Virus record (IMG/VR): IMGVR_UViG_3300020400_000857
Location: 1-45,816 of that record
DNA length: 45,816 nucleotides
Strand: one strand, 5' to 3'
Origin: a virus
This document shows positions 758 to 42,026 of the stretch, piece after piece. The notes under the pieces are model-generated. The model searched no databases and was not told the origin of the DNA. It was given only the letters and a program-made list of their open reading frames with translations. Position numbers and translations under genes: made by a program. Numbering within the stretch: the stretch's first letter is position 1; every line of letters begins with the position of its first letter.

Positions 758-2136
758 GCTATGTTCCTATAAAATTCTTCAAACTCTGGAAAGGTTTGTA
801 CAAAGTTAGTACCTCGTCTACGATCATGTTCATCAACAAATTTTTTGAAGTCAATCCTTGCTGTAGGTACATGAAGTTTCTCTCCAGCATGAGGTTCTGA
901 TTCTAAATACTCTTTGAATCGTCTCAGCTTCTCAATTTCAAAATCAAAAAATCCTTTGTAAGGATTTGTATGTGTTTCTGCATTTTGATTCATAATTGCA
1001 AAAGCAGGATCAAGCATTCTTGAATAATCATTTGGTAATATGATAGCTGATTGATGTGCAGGGTGTCTTAGTATTGCCATATCAATAGTAATAGGTACTT
1101 TCCTATCATTTGTGTAATACTTTCTTTTCATAGGATGTATTAGATCTAATAATTGGTGTATTCTAGGTACACTTAATAAGTTTGTAGTACACATAATTGT
1201 TACTTTTGTTCTTGGGCATTGTTCTAAAATTTTGTTGGTGTTATCATACCACTGATTGAAGTCTAATCCAGTTCTAATATATTCTGCTTGATCACCATAA
1301 GTATCAACAGACGTATATATTCTTGTAAGTCTTACTTTTTCTTCTACTTTTTTTAATTTTTCTAAGAATGGTAAAAATAATTTGTCAGGTACACAACCAT
1401 TTGTATTAATTGCCAACTCTAATTCTTTGTTAGGTGGATTTGCAATAATATAATCCAATAATTTAAATGTATCTTTTGACATTAATGGTTCCCCACCTGT
1501 AAGTCTAAACACTTTAAGTTTAGGATACAGACCAGGGAACCATTTCCAAAATGCTTCAACATAAGGATTTTCTTCTCTATGTGGGCGGGGCATTTTGTTT
1601 TGTTGTTTTAACCAGTCTAGATTATTAAACTGGTCTGATGTAGGATATGCTCCAAAATTTGTTACTTCTTCCATCCACTTTGAACTAAATGCAGGAGAAC
1701 AGTAAGAGCATTTTAAATTACAAACATTTGAAAATGAGACTTCTACATAATGGGGGTCAATGTTTGCGTCCCATGGTTTGTTTACTACATCTTCGAGATA
1801 AGGCCTTGCCCAAGTATCATGTGATTTCAAATGTCTATCTGAAATTAAGTTACCTGGTAAGTCCTCAACGTTCCAACAATACTGGCATTCAGGAGGTCTA
1901 ACACCTTCTAACATTAATCGTCTTTGTGATTTTTTATATGCTGTATTGTGGAGAGCCGATGGATTGTCTTTTAATTCTTCCAACGGAATCTTGTGAGTTT
2001 GAGGGTGGTGACAAGAATGTGTATGTCCAAATTGTAAATGTAATGTTACTTGTAACCACTTTGCTAAACAAAAACTTGGTGATATTTTGTTTATAGCATC
2101 TCTAGTTTTATGTATCTTTTGTACTTCATCAGTCAT
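754..2136 (-). CDS. Radical SAM enzyme (twitch-domain type)
   Basis: The 460-residue product has the canonical radical SAM cluster CNLKCSYC (CxxxCxxC) near residues 138-146, followed by LTGGEP (the GGE motif that contacts SAM) near residue 213 and INTNG further on. Such enzymes use a 4Fe-4S cluster and SAM to make a 5'-deoxyadenosyl radical. Additional conserved-looking Cys/His sites are HSCHHP near residue 40 and CQYC near residue 84, which could bind a second metal or cluster. The architecture resembles the twitch-domain radical SAM proteins found in marine phages; the substrate is unknown. Its start overlaps the upstream stop at 2136 as TAATG. A paralogue begins at 114, and a YgfZ-type protein, a family linked to Fe-S enzyme maintenance, lies in the same operon. 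Confidence 0.88.
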   Translation of the reverse strand: MTDEVQKIHKTRDAINKISPSFCLAKWLQVTLHLQFGHTHSCHHPQTHKIPLEELKDNPSALHNTAYKKSQRRLMLEGVRPPECQYCWNVEDLPGNLISDRHLKSHDTWARPYLEDVVNKPWDANIDPHYVEVSFSNVCNLKCSYCSPAFSSKWMEEVTNFGAYPTSDQFNNLDWLKQQNKMPRPHREENPYVEAFWKWFPGLYPKLKVFRLTGGEPLMSKDTFKLLDYIIANPPNKELELAINTNGCVPDKLFLPFLEKLKKVEEKVRLTRIYTSVDTYGDQAEYIRTGLDFNQWYDNTNKILEQCPRTKVTIMCTTNLLSVPRIHQLLDLIHPMKRKYYTNDRKVPITIDMAILRHPAHQSAIILPNDYSRMLDPAFAIMNQNAETHTNPYKGFFDFEIEKLRRFKEYLESEPHAGEKLHVPTARIDFKKFVDEHDRRRGTNFVQTFPEFEEFYRNIA

Positions 2137-3140
2137 TAGATAATTTTAAATTTTCTAGTTCCGTCTGCTTTCTTCTCTAGAAAATGAGCTCCGTTTCTAG
2201 GCGGTGCTGTATAAGTTTTCTTATAAAATCTACTTGAGTCTGAATCAAAGTCAGCAATTTGTAAACCAAGTTTTTGCCTTAAAGGATTACCTAGTTCAAT
2301 AATTTCTTGCCAAAGTTTATCTTTATTCCAAACGTAACCTGTTTTATTACATTTGATATCATCGTCTTCACCTTTAAATTTTGGTTGTATTTCTTCTTCC
2401 CAAAATTTAGTATGCCAGGTAAAGTCTCTAACATTGATCCACTCTCCTGATGTACCCCATTTAGTTAAGTTTGTCATATGACATCCTAACCTTGCACCGT
2501 ATACCGCCCATATACCATTAAGAGCATCTGCTCCTACTGTACACCAAGTTAATAGTCTTTGATAATTTTTATCGTGTATTTGTGATTCAAAGTTGTCTGG
2601 ATCAACTCTTTGTCCGTCATCCAAACTCATTTTAACACCTTCTCTAAAGCCTGCTCTGTAGGCTTGATATGGAGAAGCATTATTATACACATATGAAAAA
2701 ATATCATTCATTTGAATATAGTTCATATCCCAACAAAAGTCCACTTGAGCTTGTGGTGTTTCTGCTGATTCGTGTGTTTTCATATTTAGTACGCCTTCCA
2801 CTGGCCAGTTTTTAATTCCCCCGTTACCATAAACTAAACCATTGACGTCGTTTTTACCACACCAAGATATTACAGATTTTGACCAATCAGTATCGCCAAA
2901 ATCTAATTTTTGATCACAGAATCTAGGATCAATAATGTTATCCCCATCAACAGTAGTGAACCGTTCTGTGTCAGACTGATTTGCACATTCTTTGTGTGCG
3001 GCATCAGATCCTTCTACTCCATGCACACGTTTTGCCCATGGCACTTTGTTTTTTATGTCAGCCCAATTCTCTTCTGCATTAGGCTCATCATAGCTCAAAT
3101 AAAAAATATCGTATTCAGTTACATCAAATATTTTACTCAT
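2136..3140 (-). CDS. GT-A-like glycosyltransferase-type protein
   Basis: The 334-residue protein begins with IFYLSYDEPNAEENW, a strand-turn start typical of glycosyltransferase-like proteins of marine phages, and has FTTVDGDNIID near residue 66. The VDGDN element looks like the DxD metal and nucleotide-sugar site of GT-A folds. It is rich in Trp and Tyr and has no membrane segment or signal peptide. Fold and motif suggest transfer of a sugar, but donor and acceptor cannot be read from the sequence. It sits between the radical SAM gene (1-base overlap) and an unknown gene 1 base upstream, inside the accessory operon. Confidence is moderate that it is GT-like and low for any precise activity. 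Confidence 0.5.
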   Translation of the reverse strand: MSKIFDVTEYDIFYLSYDEPNAEENWADIKNKVPWAKRVHGVEGSDAAHKECANQSDTERFTTVDGDNIIDPRFCDQKLDFGDTDWSKSVISWCGKNDVNGLVYGNGGIKNWPVEGVLNMKTHESAETPQAQVDFCWDMNYIQMNDIFSYVYNNASPYQAYRAGFREGVKMSLDDGQRVDPDNFESQIHDKNYQRLLTWCTVGADALNGIWAVYGARLGCHMTNLTKWGTSGEWINVRDFTWHTKFWEEEIQPKFKGEDDDIKCNKTGYVWNKDKLWQEIIELGNPLRQKLGLQIADFDSDSSRFYKKTYTAPPRNGAHFLEKKADGTRKFKII

Positions 3141-3141
3141 C

Positions 3142-3756
3142 TTATTCCTCTGTTAAAATATAGTCGTCGTAAATTCTCTTTGTAAATACACCTATATTCT
3201 TATTCTCTTCTGTGTTTTTATATCGTATTTCAACACAGTCTTTTGTAAGCAAATCTGCTACACGAATACTCTTATATGTATTTAACTGATGCGGATCTTC
3301 GTTTGAAGATATTAAAAACAATAAACTTTGTGGTCCTTTTATATCAATAATATCAGGGTTATCAAAGTTTTTACTTTCTGCTGTAAGTGTGTTTTTACTT
3401 GCTAACCACTTTTTTAATTCACTATTCATTTCAATTTTTAGTTTATTTTGTTTAGTAATATTTGTAACTTTAATATCATATTTTTTATTATGCTTATCTT
3501 CTTTGGGTAATGCATATAGATATTGATCAATATGTTTTGTGGTTAGTTCAATTCTTTTTTTCCTAACATCTACATCATCAGGGTCAGCAGGATTAATATG
3601 AACATAGTAATCTACAAGATTTAATTCACCTTTTAAAAATCCTTCTACTGATTCTAATTTAACTTCTATTCTTGGTTCATCAACAAACTTGTCGGGGCCA
3701 ACTTGTTTCAAAGTTTTATCTACTGGATCATATCCTGCAAAAAATTTTGGTGTCAT
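3142..3756 (-). CDS. Conserved-looking protein of unknown function
   Basis: I do not recognise this 204-residue protein. It is charged and Lys/Asp-rich, with no membrane segment, signal peptide or cysteine cluster. The first third (FFAGYDPVDKTLKQVGPDKF, then FLKGELNLVDYYVHINP) looks like beta structure, and the middle is Lys-rich. Its start overlaps the stop of the YgfZ-type gene by 4 bases (ATGA), and the downstream GT-like gene begins 1 base after its stop, so it is translated within the cassette. Its base composition matches the neighbours. Confidence 0.7.
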   Translation of the reverse strand: MTPKFFAGYDPVDKTLKQVGPDKFVDEPRIEVKLESVEGFLKGELNLVDYYVHINPADPDDVDVRKKRIELTTKHIDQYLYALPKEDKHNKKYDIKVTNITKQNKLKIEMNSELKKWLASKNTLTAESKNFDNPDIIDIKGPQSLLFLISSNEDPHQLNTYKSIRVADLLTKDCVEIRYKNTEENKNIGVFTKRIYDDYILTEE

Positions 3757-4328
3757 TCTACTGGTTCCTTAATTATTGTATAGCCATCTATCTCTAATAA
3801 AGTTTTATGACTAGCAGGCAAGTGTGTTGATTTTAATTGCTCTGATTTATATATTTTAATTACTTTTTTATTTTTTTGTTTATGTTTCATTCTGGATACT
3901 ACTTCTTGTCCAACATAACAACCTTTGGTGTAATCAATTAAACTGTCATTAACTTCGCTTGGAAACAATGATGGTTGAACCATAAAGTTTGTATCAAGTT
4001 TACCTTCAGACAATTTGTTTACAAAATACTTACGATCAAATTTGTTTTTATCTAGTTCTGTATGTTCTATAGTCACGTCAGATAATCTTGCATAGTTGTT
4101 TAAATAGGATAACAAATCATTTTGATTGTTAGAACATAATACAGAATAGTAATCGCTATTGTCTGTAATCATAATTTGATGTTTTATTTTACCTTGTGGT
4201 GTAAGTATAAAACTTTCTAATGTTCCATCAATTTTTTCTATATTGTTAGTAATTAAACTTTGTAAAAACTGTGCTTTTTCTTTCCCAGAAATTTTAATTT
4301 CAATTGGATTTATATTTTCAACTTGCAT
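3753..4328 (-). CDS. ygfZ: YgfZ/GcvT-like folate-binding protein
   Basis: The 191-residue product carries the YgfZ signature KGCYVGQEVVSRMKH near residues 132-146, including the conserved Cys that the family requires. It also has the N-terminal FLQSLITNNI and LTPQGKI elements typical of YgfZ (roughly residues 21-48). YgfZ proteins are tetrahydrofolate-dependent factors that help make or repair certain Fe-S enzymes, the best known being the radical SAM enzyme MiaB. The protein is shorter than bacterial YgfZ (about 320 residues), with the central and C-terminal parts reduced. It overlaps both neighbours by one to four bases, in the same operon as two radical SAM genes, so a role in keeping those enzymes active is a reasonable inference. 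GcvT-type aminomethyltransferase activity is less likely because the signature is specific to YgfZ. Confidence 0.85.
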   Translation of the reverse strand: MQVENINPIEIKISGKEKAQFLQSLITNNIEKIDGTLESFILTPQGKIKHQIMITDNSDYYSVLCSNNQNDLLSYLNNYARLSDVTIEHTELDKNKFDRKYFVNKLSEGKLDTNFMVQPSLFPSEVNDSLIDYTKGCYVGQEVVSRMKHKQKNKKVIKIYKSEQLKSTHLPASHKTLLEIDGYTIIKEPVE

Positions 4329-4741
4329 TATAAATCCTCTAAGTCTTGTAAATGTGTATCTAATGCAGTAGTTGATAACTGTATTTCAATAATATAAAAT
4401 ATTAAACTTGTACCAAATGTAAGTAAACTTCCAACAAAAGTTAGTGTAAAATTAAACATATTACCTGTGTGTACAAAATACATTGCAATTAAATTTAGAA
4501 TAAAAGCAATAGATGCCAAGGTTGATGTTGCACGATTTAACATCAAACGTTTTCTTAGTATATCAATTTGCTTCATATATCTATTAGTTTGTTTGTCTTT
4601 TCTTGTTAATTTTTTGTTTATCAGTTCATCGTGTATTTTTCTAATTAATGATGCCATTGACATATACCTATTACCAAATGAAATCATCATTAATGGTATT
4701 GCTGGAAATAGTGCCGCTGGTAATAAAAATGTACTATCCAT
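4328..4741 (-). CDS. DUF2721 family membrane protein
   Basis: The 137-residue protein begins with a hydrophobic stretch (LLPAALFPAIPLMMISFGNR) that leads into MSMASLIRKIHDEL. After a Lys-rich cytoplasmic-looking segment and QIDILRKRLMLNR come two more membrane helices (about 73-92 and 97-120). This is the layout and motif set of DUF2721, a bacterial inner-membrane family of unknown function. The family is normally encoded on bacterial chromosomes, so acquisition from a host is likely. It overlaps the upstream GT8-like gene by 8 bases and the YgfZ gene by 1 base. The role is unknown; membrane location is well supported by hydrophobicity. Confidence 0.75.
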   Translation of the reverse strand: MDSTFLLPAALFPAIPLMMISFGNRYMSMASLIRKIHDELINKKLTRKDKQTNRYMKQIDILRKRLMLNRATSTLASIAFILNLIAMYFVHTGNMFNFTLTFVGSLLTFGTSLIFYIIEIQLSTTALDTHLQDLEDL

Positions 4742-5588
4742 GTCCTATGTTGTCCTCGTATTTTTTTATTAGTTCATCTGTTGCAAGATTTTTTGAGAAA
4801 TAATGTATTGGATAATGTTGCGTATAATTTCCAATTTTTACAGAATCTTTTGTAACATAAAAGCCAATATGATTAGTCCAATCGTCAGTTATTACTGAAT
4901 GCCAACCTTGTAGTTCTGGTTTCATGTGTACAAAGGTTGGATAGTTTAGTGTTGGTGCTTGTATTTCATTTGTAATATCTAAAAGTTTTGCCGCCATGGC
5001 ATAAATTACATCAGCACTAATCCATTCTTGTCTATTTTGATTATCTAAAAATTCTTCTCTAAAATAGTCCCAGTTTCTAAATATTTTTTCTACCATAGCA
5101 AAATAATCATTTGTTAAATCACTTTGTTTTTTAAAATACATAAATGCTGTATAAACATTTGGTAAGTTATTTTGTGTAAAAGTTTTACGCATATAATCAC
5201 TAGTAATCAGCTCGTGCCTGTATGTTAATACTTTTGTTGTTGCTACAACATCTTGTTTACTCATAACATCCCACCAATGAGATACATCTGATGTAAACAA
5301 CATATCAGTATCAAGTATCACTGTTTCGTCGTATGGTGTAAAATGAAAATACTTCCATTTATTTTCAACTTTCCAGTCGCTTAATTCAGCATCGTCTTCG
5401 AATGGAATTTCAATTACATGATCAAATATCTTTCGATACTTGTCATCTAATTTAGTATCTTTTGTGATAGCAATACTAATATTGTTCACAGAGCATTGTG
5501 TATACTTGATAGACAATGCCAACAGATATGCTAGACGTGTATAGTCTATTGTACTGTTTTGTGCTATTACTAGATAACCTCTGCTCAT
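4734..5588 (-). CDS. GT8-like glycosyltransferase (copy 1)
   Basis: The 284-residue protein has the GT-A pattern YLVIAQNS at the N-terminus, YDETVILDTDMLFTSD near residue 90 (DxD as DTD, the metal and sugar-nucleotide site), and later NYPTFVHMKPELQGW, where the His may be the second metal ligand. This resembles GT8-type retaining glycosyltransferases. It is homologous to the protein at 6080-6952, which has YDKTLILDVDYL at the same place. It is predicted to be a soluble cytoplasmic enzyme that transfers a sugar to an unknown acceptor. It lies downstream of a small membrane protein with a 4-base overlap. Confidence 0.78.
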   Translation of the reverse strand: MSRGYLVIAQNSTIDYTRLAYLLALSIKYTQCSVNNISIAITKDTKLDDKYRKIFDHVIEIPFEDDAELSDWKVENKWKYFHFTPYDETVILDTDMLFTSDVSHWWDVMSKQDVVATTKVLTYRHELITSDYMRKTFTQNNLPNVYTAFMYFKKQSDLTNDYFAMVEKIFRNWDYFREEFLDNQNRQEWISADVIYAMAAKLLDITNEIQAPTLNYPTFVHMKPELQGWHSVITDDWTNHIGFYVTKDSVKIGNYTQHYPIHYFSKNLATDELIKKYEDNIGHG

Positions 5589-5875
5589 CCAAATATTCCA
5601 TTATAAATTAAAGTTACTAATGCTATACTATTCATTATTGTAAACCAACAGCATAAAACAAATGCTGTACTTTTACGTCTCCATGTACTGAACATTGCAC
5701 AGATACTACCAACCCAGTATAACGGAATGAATATATGTGTTGCAGGATCTAGTACAGTAAAGGTCAATGTTGCACTAGCCGATACTAGTATAATTGTTTC
5801 AAAAATTTCAACAATAGTTGCTAGTGGATCTCTACGATAACTTTCAGTAAAAAAGTTTTTTGCTTTGCTTATCAT
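5585..5875 (-). CDS. Small multi-pass membrane protein
   Basis: This 96-residue protein is unrecognised. After a basic N-terminus (SKAKNFFTESYRRDP) there are about three hydrophobic helices: residues 20-42, 47-65 and 70-92. It overlaps the genes on both sides by 4 bases, so it is translated as part of the cassette between two glycosyltransferase genes. A membrane anchor or lipid-linked-sugar role would fit the setting, but nothing in the sequence shows it. Confidence 0.65.
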   Translation of the reverse strand: MISKAKNFFTESYRRDPLATIVEIFETIILVSASATLTFTVLDPATHIFIPLYWVGSICAMFSTWRRKSTAFVLCCWFTIMNSIALVTLIYNGIFG

Positions 5876-6087
5876 TCGTCTACAATCTCACAAGTTGGTA
5901 ATGTTGAGTACAACAGTTTTTTTGCTTCGTGCAATGACTTGGCTTTTATAAAAGCTGTACCATAATTTTTTGTAATTTCTAATTCTATGTCTTCGCTAGT
6001 TTTGTTTATTCTAACCTTACCGCCAGGCGGTAAAGCAAATAATATTTTGTAATCTTTTGTTTTAGGAAAATCAATAACTTCAACCAT
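5872..6087 (-). CDS. Small protein of unknown function
   Basis: A 71-residue protein beginning MVEVIDFPKTKDYKILFALP, followed by GGKVRI and a C-terminal helix (SLHEAKKLLYSTL). It looks like a compact alpha/beta domain with no membrane segment and no known motif. It overlaps the upstream GT8-like gene by 8 bases and the downstream membrane-protein gene by 4, which supports real translation. Confidence 0.6.
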   Translation of the reverse strand: MVEVIDFPKTKDYKILFALPPGGKVRINKTSEDIELEITKNYGTAFIKAKSLHEAKKLLYSTLPTCEIVDE

Positions 6088-6952
6088 TTGTCACCTCTAT
6101 AATTTTATCTGCTTGTCTTGATAATGCATACTTGTTCATAACATGAACGTTAGTATTTCTAGTAGTTGCTGGTATAAAGTTACCAGGCTGTCTAACTTTT
6201 TCTAATAAAAATTTCATTTTATTGTGTTCTGGATAATCATAAAAATCATCAACATCAAGAGTGTGTTGTAAAAATGGTAAAGGTAATTTTGATATCCAGT
6301 TATCTCTAATGTATCCATTGAACATATGAACTGCTATACTAAATGCAAAGTCGTTTCTATATGTGTGTGAACTAAAAGCATACAGATTTTGAAAATAATG
6401 ATATCTTTGTTTTACTTCGTTGACAATATCAAAAAACAATTTTGTTTCTTTATTTTTTTCAAAATAAAATACTGTTGCCCAATAGAAATCAATACCAAAT
6501 TCTTCTACTCTATCAAAGGCTCTGATATGTCTATCACTTAATAAATCTCTACTTTCTCTATTAATCATTAACGGTTGATTTGATGTAAAGCAATTTTTTA
6601 GGAGGTCATTACAAACAAGATAATCAACATCAAGAATTAAAGTTTTATCATACGGAGATAATTCAAATGCATCAACTCGATTAAGATTATAAAATCCTAA
6701 TGTCTTTTTAGTATGTCTAGTATCACTATACGGTTTATGATTTTCAATATTTTGTCTTTGTATTTGAATTACTTTATCAAATACTTTTTCAGGCTCATGT
6801 GTTTTTCGTAGCCAGTCAATAGTACCATCATCTGTAACAATAGACACAGGTACATCAAGATTCTTTTTAACTAACATTGCGTTAGCTAAAGCAATCTTAC
6901 CATAATCGATTTCTCGATTGTTATGTGCAAACAATAAAACCCCAGAACTCAT
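6080..6952 (-). CDS. GT8-like glycosyltransferase (copy 2)
   Basis: The 290-residue protein starts VLLFAHNNREIDYGKIALAN and has VPVSIVTDDGT followed by YDKTLILDVDYLVCND near residues 101-116. DVD is the DxD metal site of a GT-A fold. A C-terminal NTNVHVMNK may supply the second metal ligand (His). It is paralogous to the gene at 4734-5588, and the two flank a pair of small genes, so a duplication followed by divergence is likely. Acceptor and donor sugars are unknown. The start overlaps the stop of the preceding 115-residue gene by 1 base (TAATG). Confidence 0.78.
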   Translation of the reverse strand: MSSGVLLFAHNNREIDYGKIALANAMLVKKNLDVPVSIVTDDGTIDWLRKTHEPEKVFDKVIQIQRQNIENHKPYSDTRHTKKTLGFYNLNRVDAFELSPYDKTLILDVDYLVCNDLLKNCFTSNQPLMINRESRDLLSDRHIRAFDRVEEFGIDFYWATVFYFEKNKETKLFFDIVNEVKQRYHYFQNLYAFSSHTYRNDFAFSIAVHMFNGYIRDNWISKLPLPFLQHTLDVDDFYDYPEHNKMKFLLEKVRQPGNFIPATTRNTNVHVMNKYALSRQADKIIEVTNG

Positions 6953-7299
6953 TAATCAACCAACTTTTCAACTTTTCGTGATTTTTGTAGTTCTTCGTAT
7001 TGTTTATGAAATTCATTTGTTACTTCAAAGTATTTTGATGTTACATCATCTTGAAATTGTTTTAGATCAGTAATTTTGATTGGTGTTTTATTTGTATCAA
7101 GCACAACCATTTCTTCTTTACCTTCAGCAAGAAATGAATTAATAAACGCAATCAATGTTTGATCAATTTTAAATGTGCCACCGTTGTAAGCATAACTTAA
7201 CTGTGCTTCACAATTATCTTGAAGTATTTTTTTCTGATTAAATAGAGTTTGTCTGTAGTTTGCAAACTCTAATGCTTTTTCTAGTCGTTCATCTGTCAT
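6952..7299 (-). CDS. Conserved-looking phage protein of unknown function
   Basis: The 115-residue product is largely alpha-helical and charged (TDERLEKALEFANYRQTLFN at the start, YEELQKSRKVEKLVD at the end), with a short central beta-like stretch. I know no function for it. A good ribosome binding site (AAGGGGG) lies a few bases before the ATG, and a sigma70-like promoter lies just upstream (7323-7352), making it the first gene of the accessory operon that runs to position 1. Confidence 0.65.
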   Translation of the reverse strand: MTDERLEKALEFANYRQTLFNQKKILQDNCEAQLSYAYNGGTFKIDQTLIAFINSFLAEGKEEMVVLDTNKTPIKITDLKQFQDDVTSKYFEVTNEFHKQYEELQKSRKVEKLVD

Positions 7300-38309: not shown

Positions 38310-39149
38310 ATGGCTAGAACAAAATATTTGAATAATAAGGATTTATTAGCGGAAATCCACAAAAGTAAAACGTCTTACTGCTACTATGAAAAACCAGAAT
38401 ATCATCAATATGATTTGATAGTGGATGAAGTTAAAAAAATTAACAGAAATACAATAAAAGAAGCTCGACTGGTTAGAGCAAAAAGACTGTCAGAACAAAA
38501 AATTGAAGCATTAGGATTAAAAGTTAAAAAAACTACAATGGATGAACACGCCATTGATCCAAAATCAATTCCAATTGAGGACCTAATTTTTAGAGTTAAA
38601 ACATTTGATCATATTCCAGATGATCTAGATAGAAAAAGCAATCACAAAACTATTGCAGATACCAAAGTAAAATTAAATTTTGTTCCTTTCAAACATTATA
38701 AATTTAAAAATTATGAAAAAAAACAATTAGTGGAAGTTGGCAAAAGTCATTATGCATCACACAATCAATTCAGTCTGGATCATGGATCAATAACTCCCAA
38801 GCTAGGTCATATGTATATGAAACTGTGTCAAAGATACGGCACAAGATCTAACTGGCGTGGGTACACTTACAATGATGAAATGCAATCACAAGCACTATTG
38901 CAATTGAGCATGATTGGTTTACAGTTTGATGAATCCAAGTCTGACAATCCATTTGCATATTATACTGCGGCAATAACCAATTCTTTTACCAGAGTATTGA
39001 ACATGGAAAAGAAACATCAAAGTCTAAGAGATGATCTTTTACAAGAAGCTGGACAGACTCCATCTTTCACAAGACAGATTGAGCATGAAGAAAAACAAAA
39101 AGCAAAACACGGAGAACAGATTTTAGGTCATGCAAAAAGAAAAAAGTAA
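38310..39149 (+). CDS. 55: Late transcription sigma factor gp55
   Basis: The 279-residue product has a divergent Lys-rich N-terminal half. Its C-terminal half carries the gp55 pattern: NWRGYTYNDEMQSQALLQL near residue 190, then FDESKSDNPFAYYTAAITNSFTRVLNMEKKHQSLRDDLL, corresponding to the sigma region 2 that recognises TATAAATA-type late promoters. T4 gp55 is 185 residues; the extra length is in the N-terminal part. gp55 directs host polymerase, with the sliding clamp, to late promoters like those found in this window. The gp47 ATG lies inside its 3' end (20-base overlap). Confidence 0.88.
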   Translation: MARTKYLNNKDLLAEIHKSKTSYCYYEKPEYHQYDLIVDEVKKINRNTIKEARLVRAKRLSEQKIEALGLKVKKTTMDEHAIDPKSIPIEDLIFRVKTFDHIPDDLDRKSNHKTIADTKVKLNFVPFKHYKFKNYEKKQLVEVGKSHYASHNQFSLDHGSITPKLGHMYMKLCQRYGTRSNWRGYTYNDEMQSQALLQLSMIGLQFDESKSDNPFAYYTAAITNSFTRVLNMEKKHQSLRDDLLQEAGQTPSFTRQIEHEEKQKAKHGEQILGHAKRKK

Positions 39150-40155
39150 GTTATTCGACAAAGTAGCTTGTTTCACTGATATTCATTTTGGCATGAAGAA
39201 CAATTCACGTCAACACAACAATGACTGTGAAGCATTCATTCACTGGTTCATTGATCAAGCCAAAGAGTTTGGTGCCAAGCAATGTATATTTTTAGGTGAT
39301 TGGCATCATCACAGATCATCAATCAATGTGTCAACGTTGAACTATTCTATGAGTAATATTCGTAGAATATCTAAAGCATTTGAAAAAGTTTATTTTATAG
39401 TTGGTAATCATGATCTCTTTTACAGAGACAAACGTGAAATATCATCTGTGCCTTTTGCAGATGAATTTGAAAATGTACAGGTTATCAACGATCTATTTCT
39501 TGAAGGTGATGTAGCCATAGTACCTTGGATGGTTGAAGATGAGTGGAAAAAAATAAAAAAAATCAAAGCCAAATATATGTTTGGACACTTTGAACTGCCC
39601 AACTTCAAAATGAACGCCATGGTTGAAATGCCAGACACAGGAACTATACAGGCAGATCATTTCAAGAATGTGGGCCATGTGTTCACAGGTCACTTCCACA
39701 AGCGTCAGCATTCAGGAAACATTTCATACATAGGTAATGCCTTCCCTCACAACTATGCTGACGCCTGGGATGACAATCGTGGATGTATGTTGCTGGAATG
39801 GGGACAAGATCCTGTGTACAAAGTTTGGCCAGATGCTCCAAGATACAGAACCATTGAATTGAGCAAACTGTTGGCAGACACAGAAACAGTATTGCAGGCC
39901 AACACATATTGCAGAGTGAAAGTGGATCTAGATATTTCATATGAAGAAGCCAACTATATTCGTGAGAATCTCACAGAATCATATCAACTCAGAGAGCTGG
40001 CACTTCTACCACAGAAAGATGCTGAGGATGAAATAGAATTTGCAGGCGAAATCAAGTTTCAGTCAGTGGATCAAATTGTGATCGAACAGTTGAAAAAACT
40101 GGAGTCTGAGACTTTTGACAACAATGTACTAGTAGAGATATACACAAGACTATGA
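39130..40155 (+). CDS. 47: Recombination endonuclease subunit gp47 (SbcD/Mre11-like)
   Basis: The 341-residue protein has all metallophosphatase motifs in order: TDIHFG (about 16), LGDWHHH (about 55), GNHD (about 92), GHFE and GHFHKR (about 199). These bind two Mn ions for exo- and endonuclease cleavage. It forms the Mre11-Rad50-like complex with gp46, used in resection, recombination and replication restart. Length matches T4 gp47 (339). The gene has visibly higher GC and more CTG/GTG codons than the flanking genes. The stop overlaps the gp46 ATG (ATGA). Confidence 0.95.
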   Translation: MQKEKSKLFDKVACFTDIHFGMKNNSRQHNNDCEAFIHWFIDQAKEFGAKQCIFLGDWHHHRSSINVSTLNYSMSNIRRISKAFEKVYFIVGNHDLFYRDKREISSVPFADEFENVQVINDLFLEGDVAIVPWMVEDEWKKIKKIKAKYMFGHFELPNFKMNAMVEMPDTGTIQADHFKNVGHVFTGHFHKRQHSGNISYIGNAFPHNYADAWDDNRGCMLLEWGQDPVYKVWPDAPRYRTIELSKLLADTETVLQANTYCRVKVDLDISYEEANYIRENLTESYQLRELALLPQKDAEDEIEFAGEIKFQSVDQIVIEQLKKLESETFDNNVLVEIYTRL

Positions 40156-42026
40156 TAAAATTAAAAAACATATCAATCAAAAACTTTCTGAGTGTGGGTA
40201 ATTCTGTGCAGGCAGTGAACTTTGACACACCAGGCATGACACTGGTATTGGGCAATAACTTGGACCTAGGAGGTGATGGATCTCGAAATGGAACAGGTAA
40301 GACTACTATCATAAATGCACTATCCTATGCCATATACGGTATAGCATTGAACAATATCAGACGTGACAATTTGATCAACAAGACCAACGGCAAGAACATG
40401 ATTGTGACTGTGGAGTTTGACAAAGACGGTCACAGCTACAGAATTGAACGTGGTCGTAAGCCAAACATATTCAAGTTTATATGTGATGATGCTGTGGTAA
40501 ACGACACAGACACCAACGAAGCCCAGGGGGATTCGAGACTTACCCAACAAGAAGTGGAACGCATATTTGGAATGAGCCATTTGATGTTTAAACACATTGT
40601 GGCCTTGAACACGTACAACGAACCTTTCTTGGCAATGAAGGCCGGGGATCAAAGAGAAGTGATTGAAGAGCTCCTCGGGATTACAAAATTAAGTGAAAAA
40701 GCTGGCAAGCTCAGAGACGAAATCAAAAGCATCAAAGACGATATCACACGTGAAGAAGCCAGAATCGATACAGTCAAGCGGTCTAACAGCAAGGTAGAAG
40801 ACACCATTAGAAAGTTTAGAATCAAATTACAAGCATGGGATGATGCACATGAAAAGCGGTTAGTTGAATTGCGTTCTTCCATTGCACAGTTAAACAAAGT
40901 GAACATTGATGAAGAGATTGACAGTCATGAACTGCTGGTCAAATGGAACCAAGATAACACTACATTGCAATCGTTGAAGCGAGAGTTAACACAGTCTATA
41001 GGCACGTTTAAACAGCTAGACAGCTCTGTACAGCGTCTGAAAGACAATATTGCTACACTAGAGGACAAAAGGTGTCCCACGTGTGATCAAGCATTGCACA
41101 ATAGTGATGAACATGATCAAATACTGGAGTCTGCTAAGAAAGAACTGATGGAGACCGAAAATCAATCACATACAACGCAAACGCAAATACAAACCACATA
41201 CAATAGTATACAACAATTATCGTCGGCACATACACATACAACAAACAATACAACACATACATCGTCGCATACAAACGTACATACAATAATATCGTCGCAT
41301 ACAAGCAACACATACAATATAGGTGCTAAACCGTCTGTATACTACAATACTATGAACGAAGCATATCAGCATAGACAGAACTTAGAAGCATTACAGTCTG
41401 AAGAAAAACGTGAACAAACAGAAACTAATCCTATTCAAGAACAGATAGATGAACTGCAACAAAAGAATATAGAAGTAATAGATTATGCTACAATTAACAG
41501 TTTAACAAGTTTAAAAGAACATCAAGAGTTTTTGTATAGATTGTTAACAAGCAAAGATTCATTTATTAGAAAGAAAATCATTGATCAGAACTTAAACTAT
41601 TTGAATTCAAGATTGAATCATTATTTAGATACAGTAGGATTACCACATGAAGTAGTATTCCAATCTGATTTAACTGTGATGATTACTGAGCTTGGCAGAG
41701 AGCTTGATTTTGATAATTTAAGTAGAGGAGAAAGAAACAGATTAATACTTGGATTGTCTTGGGCATTCAGAGATGTATTTGAAACAACATCTAATCAGCT
41801 AAACTTATTGTTTATTGATGAATTGATTGATTCGGGTATGGATACACAAGGTGTTGAATCTGCTATTGCTGTATTAAAGAAGATGGGCAGAGAAAGAAAT
41901 AAAAATGTATTCTTAATATCACACAGAGATGAATTGGTAGGAAGAGTAACAAATATATTAAACGTAATTAAGGAACACGGCTTTACTACTTTTGATAATG
42001 ATCTAGAAGTAGTAGGCAACGTATAA
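40152..42026 (+). CDS. 46: Recombination endonuclease subunit gp46 (SbcC/Rad50-like)
   Basis: A 624-residue ATPase: Walker A GRNGTGKTT-like (SRNGTGKTTIINAL, about residues 45-58), zinc hook CPTC (about 310), ABC signature LSRGERNRL (about 530) and Walker B LLFIDELID (about 560). It partners gp47. T4 gp46 is 560 residues. The extra length is mostly a His/Thr/Asn-rich tract (about residues 346-393) right after the hook. It has many His-Thr pairs and little of the Glu/Lys expected in a coiled coil, and it is encoded by a G-poor repeat of CATACA words. The 5' half is GC-richer than the 3' half. The frame is intact throughout. Confidence 0.93.
   Translation: MIKLKNISIKNFLSVGNSVQAVNFDTPGMTLVLGNNLDLGGDGSRNGTGKTTIINALSYAIYGIALNNIRRDNLINKTNGKNMIVTVEFDKDGHSYRIERGRKPNIFKFICDDAVVNDTDTNEAQGDSRLTQQEVERIFGMSHLMFKHIVALNTYNEPFLAMKAGDQREVIEELLGITKLSEKAGKLRDEIKSIKDDITREEARIDTVKRSNSKVEDTIRKFRIKLQAWDDAHEKRLVELRSSIAQLNKVNIDEEIDSHELLVKWNQDNTTLQSLKRELTQSIGTFKQLDSSVQRLKDNIATLEDKRCPTCDQALHNSDEHDQILESAKKELMETENQSHTTQTQIQTTYNSIQQLSSAHTHTTNNTTHTSSHTNVHTIISSHTSNTYNIGAKPSVYYNTMNEAYQHRQNLEALQSEEKREQTETNPIQEQIDELQQKNIEVIDYATINSLTSLKEHQEFLYRLLTSKDSFIRKKIIDQNLNYLNSRLNHYLDTVGLPHEVVFQSDLTVMITELGRELDFDNLSRGERNRLILGLSWAFRDVFETTSNQLNLLFIDELIDSGMDTQGVESAIAVLKKMGRERNKNVFLISHRDELVGRVTNILNVIKEHGFTTFDNDLEVVGNV
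41170..41330 (+). repeat. CATACA-rich low-complexity tract inside gp46
   Basis: About 160 bases with very few G, built of ACA/CATACA words, and two copies of ATCGTCGCATACAA (near 41261 and 41291). It encodes the His/Thr-rich insert of gp46. No homologous sequence is seen elsewhere in the window. Confidence 0.8.

Follow-up and report, generated by a model that had tools for sequence, protein, structure and literature searches.

A 45,816-base IMG/VR virus record, hereafter the window (i.e., the whole stretch of DNA analyzed), encodes a 191-residue protein (positions 3753–4328, minus strand) that is, judged from its sequence, of the YgfZ/IBA57 type (COG0354-type in the broad sense) with its motif cysteine intact. 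We consider it reasonably likely that this protein, which we call mini-YgfZ, is a phage-borne, domain-reduced YgfZ/IBA57-like [4Fe-4S] maturation factor and one of several interchangeable Fe–S parts.

Sequence, architecture, and predicted fold of mini-YgfZ

The plus strand across 3753–4328 is crowded with stop codons, and the open reading frame lies on the minus strand. An initial annotation of this DNA had pointed to a KGCYVGQE signature with an intact cysteine in a frame of 191 residues, and this holds: the motif occupies residues 135–142, with the cysteine at position 137. The KGCxxGQE motif is the mark that sets the YgfZ/IBA57 type apart from GcvT. Residues 10–89 match GCV_T (Pfam PF01571; E = 1.7e-7, 31.2 bits against a cut-off of 25.6), and residues 120–168 match the NCBIfam model CAF17_like_YgfZ (TIGR03317; E = 3e-13) narrowly, at 50.1 bits against a cut-off of 49, while the closest homologue scores 49.0 bits against the same cut-off. 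Scores fell short of the cut-offs of the GcvT equivalog and subfamily models (20.6 against 300 and 17.2 against 235.85) and of the E. coli-type full-length YgfZ equivalog NF007110 (36.2 bits against 219). Given the NF007110 score and the segments missing from the protein, mini-YgfZ is filed here as a reduced YgfZ-like homologue rather than a full-length equivalog.

Bacterial YgfZ had been put at about 320 residues, in agreement with the 328 residues of the solved E. coli chain. Compared to two full-length YgfZ proteins (L070 and L034), mini-YgfZ lacks the N-terminal extension, ~77 internal residues, and ~40 C-terminal residues, and the missing segments fall at identical places in all seven intact phage copies. 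A scan of 398 Pseudomonadota genomes yielded matches in 376, the best reaching 48 bits among the matches listed; the ygfZ frames among these listed matches measured at least 240 residues, bar one of 194 residues near a contig start. Since bacterial frames are mostly of at least 240 residues, the phage form is reduced, and neither a short-form YgfZ nor a near relative that could be the bacterial donor was seen among the matches listed for these 398 genomes. A separate genome scan, in which the phage alignment served as the query, likewise yielded no relative. With ~77 internal and ~40 C-terminal residues missing, the activity of mini-YgfZ may be lost or changed, i.e., the missing segments may leave room for an altered or interfering function.

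Structure prediction from an alignment of nine sequences (seven phage, two bacterial) gave a main model with a pLDDT of 78 and a pTM of 0.70. Foldseek placed Iba57 first for this model (7z3h, E = 2.8e-9) and ranked both Iba57 and YgfZ (1nrk, E = 8.3e-8) above GcvT. VIA-align scores were tied between YgfZ (1nrk, Z = 12.1, rmsd 3.0 over 172 aligned residues), human IBA57 (Z = 12.0), and GcvT (1yx2, Z = 11.9), so that the fold alone cannot separate YgfZ from GcvT. Because two bacterial sequences had entered the main alignment, we used a phage-only model as a control; this model, for which six phage sequences were aligned, is of poor quality (pLDDT 60), and Iba57 was again the first Foldseek match (E = 4.3e-7). 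No match to the mini-YgfZ model was found in the BFVD viral structure library at E ≤ 0.001. Overall, mini-YgfZ is predicted to have the GcvT/YgfZ folate-binding fold, with IBA57/YgfZ as the best match; the initial annotation had been prepared to give up its reading for want of this fold, which is predicted in the phage-only control as well.

The near-equal Z-scores of 1yx2 and 1nrk would also suit a folate-binding protein serving one-carbon metabolism or folate buffering instead of Fe–S clusters. Gene context lends this some color: a serine hydroxymethyltransferase gene lies two genes downstream of mini-ygfZ in the related contig G006 (L054 4217–5359; NF000586, 557.8 bits against 335), and contig G001 has a ThyX-like gene, recognized by eye, which we take to be ThyX. 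We nevertheless regard a folate role as very unlikely, as the KGCxxGQE motif is of the YgfZ/IBA57 type, TIGR03317 is matched above its cut-off, Foldseek ranks Iba57 and YgfZ over GcvT, and the recurrent companions in the carrier phages are Fe–S scaffolds rather than folate enzymes (see below).

Genomic setting and viral homologues

In the window, ygfZ stands in a run of minus-strand genes with very short junctions. Its upstream neighbor encodes a DUF2721 membrane-type protein of 137 residues (4328–4741; PF11026, 79.2 bits against 28.3), whose stop codon shares one base with the start of ygfZ. Downstream follow, in order, a 204-residue protein (3142–3756) that overlaps the ygfZ stop by 4 bases, has no family match, and has no homologue among the other ygfZ carriers; a 334-residue protein (2136–3140) with no Pfam, NCBIfam, or PHROGs match; a complete twitch (N_Twi) radical SAM protein of 460 residues (754–2136; NF033640, 362 bits against 170); a 209-residue protein with no family match (128–757); and a second twitch radical SAM gene (1–141), of which the left window edge leaves only the first ~47 codons, 69% identical over 42 residues to the complete one. 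The 334-residue protein is conserved: its homologues (30–54% identity) accompany radical SAM genes on five contigs of related phages, and in some related phages the homologue forms a portion of a larger protein. The complete twitch protein has its core cysteines at positions 139, 143, and 146 and further N-terminal cysteines at 23, 42, 84, and 87, which could serve as ligands of an auxiliary cluster.

Downstream of ygfZ, neighboring genes overlap three times, by 4, 1, and 4 bases, and are once separated by a single base; at the sequence level ygfZ is translationally coupled within this same-strand array. The operon with two radical SAM genes that had been proposed thus stands as one same-strand array, with the qualification that one of these genes is complete and the other cut by the window edge; ygfZ is not adjacent to either, two genes separating it from the complete one.

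Upstream, the array continues with five minus-strand frames (284, 96, 71, 290, and 115 residues; 4734–7299) without a Pfam or NCBIfam name where scanned, four of which have homologues adjoining tail genes in contigs G005 and/or G007. Structural (tail-type) genes syntenic with the same two contigs extend across 8080–45024, and the pair at 39130–40155 and 40152–42026 is presumably gp47/gp46-like (T4 gene names) by resemblance. No tRNA genes were found in the 45,816-base window. The tail genes of the window and the phage proteins shared among carriers show that ygfZ is part of a phage genome and does not belong to host DNA flanking a prophage.

The viral collection contained six further intact copies (G001–G006) and, in G007, one truncated by the end of the contig. 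The intact copies in G001 through G006 are about 73, 58, 53, 54, 58, and 62% identical to the window protein (range 52–73%), and all seven intact copies span 186–193 residues, with K135-G-C137-x-x-G-Q-E142-V-V-x-R-M invariant in each. The ratio of non-synonymous to synonymous divergence (dN/dS) was 0.12 between the window copy and its closest relative and 0.10–0.29 in 19 of 21 pairs, dS being saturated in the other two. Mini-YgfZ is thus under purifying selection, and these dN/dS values, together with the phage homologues and two independent profile hits in the expected order, indicate that it is not merely a chance motif. Small size, missing segments, and a patchy distribution might otherwise suggest a decaying passenger gene about to be lost, an idea that seven intact copies of near-constant length with the same gaps, the same motif, and dN/dS well below 1 render hardly credible.

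All carriers have phage proteins in common with one another and belong to one lineage of large T4-like phages known solely from environmental DNA. A full back-translation scan of the viral collection for KGC[YF]xGQE[IMV], a pattern that could miss variants in which the final E is followed by a residue other than I, M, or V, returned nine stretches: six were carriers, L034 encoded a full-length bacterial-type YgfZ (345 residues), and L031 and L038 had no frame containing the motif. Nine stretches with six carriers mark the mini-YgfZ family as rare in this collection. The sole INPHARED matches were two “Acinetobacter phage MD-2021a” records at 20.6% identity. One of them, CAKLQH020000002.1 (L003, a 254-kb “Acinetobacter phage”), was not counted, since its ygfZ is flanked by proS, mdtC, and a TonB receptor gene, i.e., by a bacterial chromosome, and it is probably mislabelled as a phage.

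The position of ygfZ varies across the lineage. In the window it belongs to an array next to tail genes, in G003 it is inside a radical SAM array, in G004 it directly follows a DNA-polymerase-like gene, in G001 and G002 it is part of a replication-gene block, and in G005 and G006 it lies beside other genes. That three of the seven intact copies adjoin replication genes, and that a large part of YgfZ is missing, could fit a protein that modifies or blocks host YgfZ, e.g., to alter replication control or Fe–S supply, the more so as a link of YgfZ with IHF binding and with the initiation of replication in E. coli is reported in a 2026 paper (PMC13036160). Set against this, the motif is fully kept in seven copies under purifying selection, as expected for an active protein, and nothing observed points directly to interference, which we therefore rate as quite unlikely.

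Radical SAM and Fe–S assembly genes in related phages

The initial annotation had placed its interest in a ygfZ beside radical SAM genes and would have given up its reading had this company been confined to one contig; the co-occurrence does extend beyond this contig. Matches to PF04055 were found in seven of the eight records with an intact or cut ygfZ (1–14 matches each): one in the window in addition to the cut gene, two in G002, 14 in G003, eight each in G004 and G005, two in G006, and six in G007. The exception, G001 (0 matches), is a 9.9-kb fragment, and every carrier record >10 kb has radical SAM genes. A direct junction was seen in G003 only, where ygfZ shares bases with the end of a twitch radical SAM gene (L005). 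Many radical SAM proteins of the carriers have at least four cysteines before the core motif and others have 5–8 after it, extra sets that are consistent with auxiliary clusters.

The background for these figures consisted of related T4-like contigs selected for a gp46-like gene, with ygfZ playing no part in the choice (44 of 80 loci, 36 shorter than 13 kb being left out). Mini-YgfZ was found in 0 of these 44 contigs and radical SAM matches in 11; among background contigs of at least 70 kb, 9 of 11 had 2–17 radical SAM matches, eight of them with a match over the cut-off. Several apparent near-duplicates, such as those with identical match scores (G026/G031 and G035/G036), mean that the background holds fewer independent records than listed. 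Radical SAM density was no different in carriers than in the background (p = 0.28), and a claim that carriers are richer in radical SAM genes than their relatives was dropped on this account. The specific partnership between ygfZ and radical SAM genes implied by the initial annotation is thus not supported, relatives without ygfZ being equally rich in them. With equal density and no mini-YgfZ in the 44 background contigs, mini-YgfZ is evidently not a requirement for the radical SAM enzymes of phages: radical SAM arrays characterize the lineage, and mini-YgfZ joins them occasionally. Arrays of 8–23 radical SAM genes, mostly twitch/SPASM-like, were observed in G003 (L042–L045, 23949–48528), G459, G460, G026, G031, and G048.

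Equal richness in relatives without ygfZ, along with the variable position of the gene across G001–G006, would also be expected if mini-YgfZ served host Fe–S enzymes or stress tolerance generally and kept radical SAM company through shared phage lineage. However, all carrier records >10 kb contain radical SAM genes and the G003 gene overlaps one of them, and we consider this explanation unlikely, if the most serious competitor to a maturation factor with phage clients.

Carriers also encode other Fe–S assembly proteins. G004 has ErpA (148.3 bits against 117), an IscA-like protein (TIGR00049, 84.8 against 58.8), IscU (221.3 against 192.4), and an HscB-like protein below the cut-off (45.1 bits); G003 has IscU above the cut-off (210.6 bits) and an Nfu-like protein below it; and G001 has SufB (850 against 717) and a half-length SufD below the cut-off. 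No SUFBD, A-type, or IscU match was found in G005, the largest carrier (182 kb). At least one of these three Pfam families was present in 3 of 8 carrier records (3 of 7 without G007, whose ygfZ is cut) compared to 2 of 39 background records (the 44 minus L100, L119, L123, L124, and L141; Fisher p = 0.029), and, for records of at least 70 kb, in 2 of 3 carriers compared to 1 of 11 background contigs (p = 0.093). As these tests were unplanned and the records are fragmentary and include near-duplicates, the enrichment of mini-ygfZ carriers in other Fe–S assembly genes is only suggestive.

A short SufD was found on 13 contigs, the longest of 328 kb; G001 alone among these has mini-YgfZ. SufB was present on the fetched stretches L184–L191, L193, and L002, and SufC on L188–L195, with radical SAM matches in 10 of the 11 short-SufD contigs searched (up to 23). 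Phage SUF scaffold genes were likewise noted at L002 5448–7462, and SufC also at L072. In G001, ygfZ is convergent with SufB–SufD and not co-directional; a single operon of YgfZ and SUF was ruled out by this arrangement and by the overlap in one of 13 contigs, which marks YgfZ and SUF as separate options rather than one system.

Further genes were noted on phage contigs of this lineage. G453 carries a full cytochrome b (L199 5818–7107; PF00033 and PF00032), as well as FdxA (L198 5190–5555) and ribosomal protein L11 (L198 8700–9122) over their NCBIfam cut-offs and endonuclease III-like (L199 5116–5796) and SufT/PaaD-like (L199 7194–7562) genes below theirs. G006, in which a folate enzyme (serine hydroxymethyltransferase) is found near the folate-fold mini-YgfZ, encodes a protein 83% identical to this cytochrome b (L055 14152–15441).

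Proposed role and known systems

For activity, clients, folate use, and benefit, we infer a role in which mini-YgfZ would most likely act as YgfZ is thought to, i.e., in the delivery of [4Fe-4S] clusters to client enzymes or their upkeep there, by way of the motif cysteine and, by homology, a (tetrahydro)folate pocket. Clients in the infected cell would be the phage radical SAM enzymes, many with extra cysteine sets, and possibly host enzymes. The T4-like lineage would pick up interchangeable Fe–S supply genes in varying sets, among them IscU, A-type carriers, HscB-like, Nfu, and SufB, SufC, and short SufD.

A bolder version, which we offer tentatively, holds that these genes form a modular Fe–S supply line in T4-like phages and that mini-YgfZ is a minimal working core, the internal segment of YgfZ/IBA57 being dispensable. 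Each phage would then use its own subset of mini-YgfZ, IscU, A-type, HscB-like, Nfu, SufT-like, SufB, SufC, and half-length SufD proteins, and this subset would charge as many as ~20 radical SAM enzymes of phage origin.

The mechanism by which YgfZ/IBA57 acts on [4Fe-4S] clusters is debated, and a natural form of ~190 residues offers a ready minimal construct. If mini-YgfZ works, phages can carry late-acting Fe–S maturation factors and not just scaffolds. A working mini-YgfZ would also help explain charged oxygen-sensitive enzymes in cells infected by radical-SAM-rich phages and could serve as a practical helper for the expression of hard radical SAM enzymes.

Among known proteins, bacterial YgfZ (TIGR03317; PDB 1nrk and 1vly) shares with mini-YgfZ the KGCYxGQE motif with its cysteine, the N-terminal GCV_T-like part, and the predicted fold, but is longer (328 compared to 191 residues), the phage-encoded form lacking the internal and C-terminal segments described above. 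E. coli YgfZ is required for MiaB activity and nearly all RimO activity in vivo, and its precise role was called uncharacterized in 2023 (PMC10002905). Mitochondrial IBA57 (PDB 7z3h, 6qe3, and 6geu) also has the motif cysteine and provides the best Foldseek matches for both models, whereas mini-YgfZ is shorter and without mitochondrial targeting. GcvT (PF01571) has the folate-binding domain of residues 10–89 in common with mini-YgfZ, but the C-terminal motif of the latter is YgfZ-type and its scores against the GcvT models stay well under the respective cut-offs.

Among known phages, pelagimyophages have cassettes of radical SAM genes within a hypervariable part of the genome (PMC7029224); the radical SAM content is alike, and the excerpts of that paper covered by the terms searched do not mention Fe–S assembly genes. 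The closest precedent is the set of T4-like marine viral genomes described by Nishimura et al. 2017 (PMC5332604), which are the same kind of phage and pair Fe–S scaffolds with radical SAM genes: A-type carriers and IscU are reported, one genome has 12 radical SAM genes, and service to viral Fe–S proteins was proposed. YgfZ and SufB have no occurrence in the text of that paper, and no report of a phage-borne YgfZ was found in the open-licence PMC literature, judged by titles and the start of abstracts. The “unusual auxiliary function” envisaged for this gene therefore has a published forerunner in phage IscU and A-type carriers (PMC5332604): Fe–S scaffolds beside radical SAM genes in phages date from 2017, and YgfZ is the component that, within the open-licence PMC literature, is new among phage Fe–S genes.
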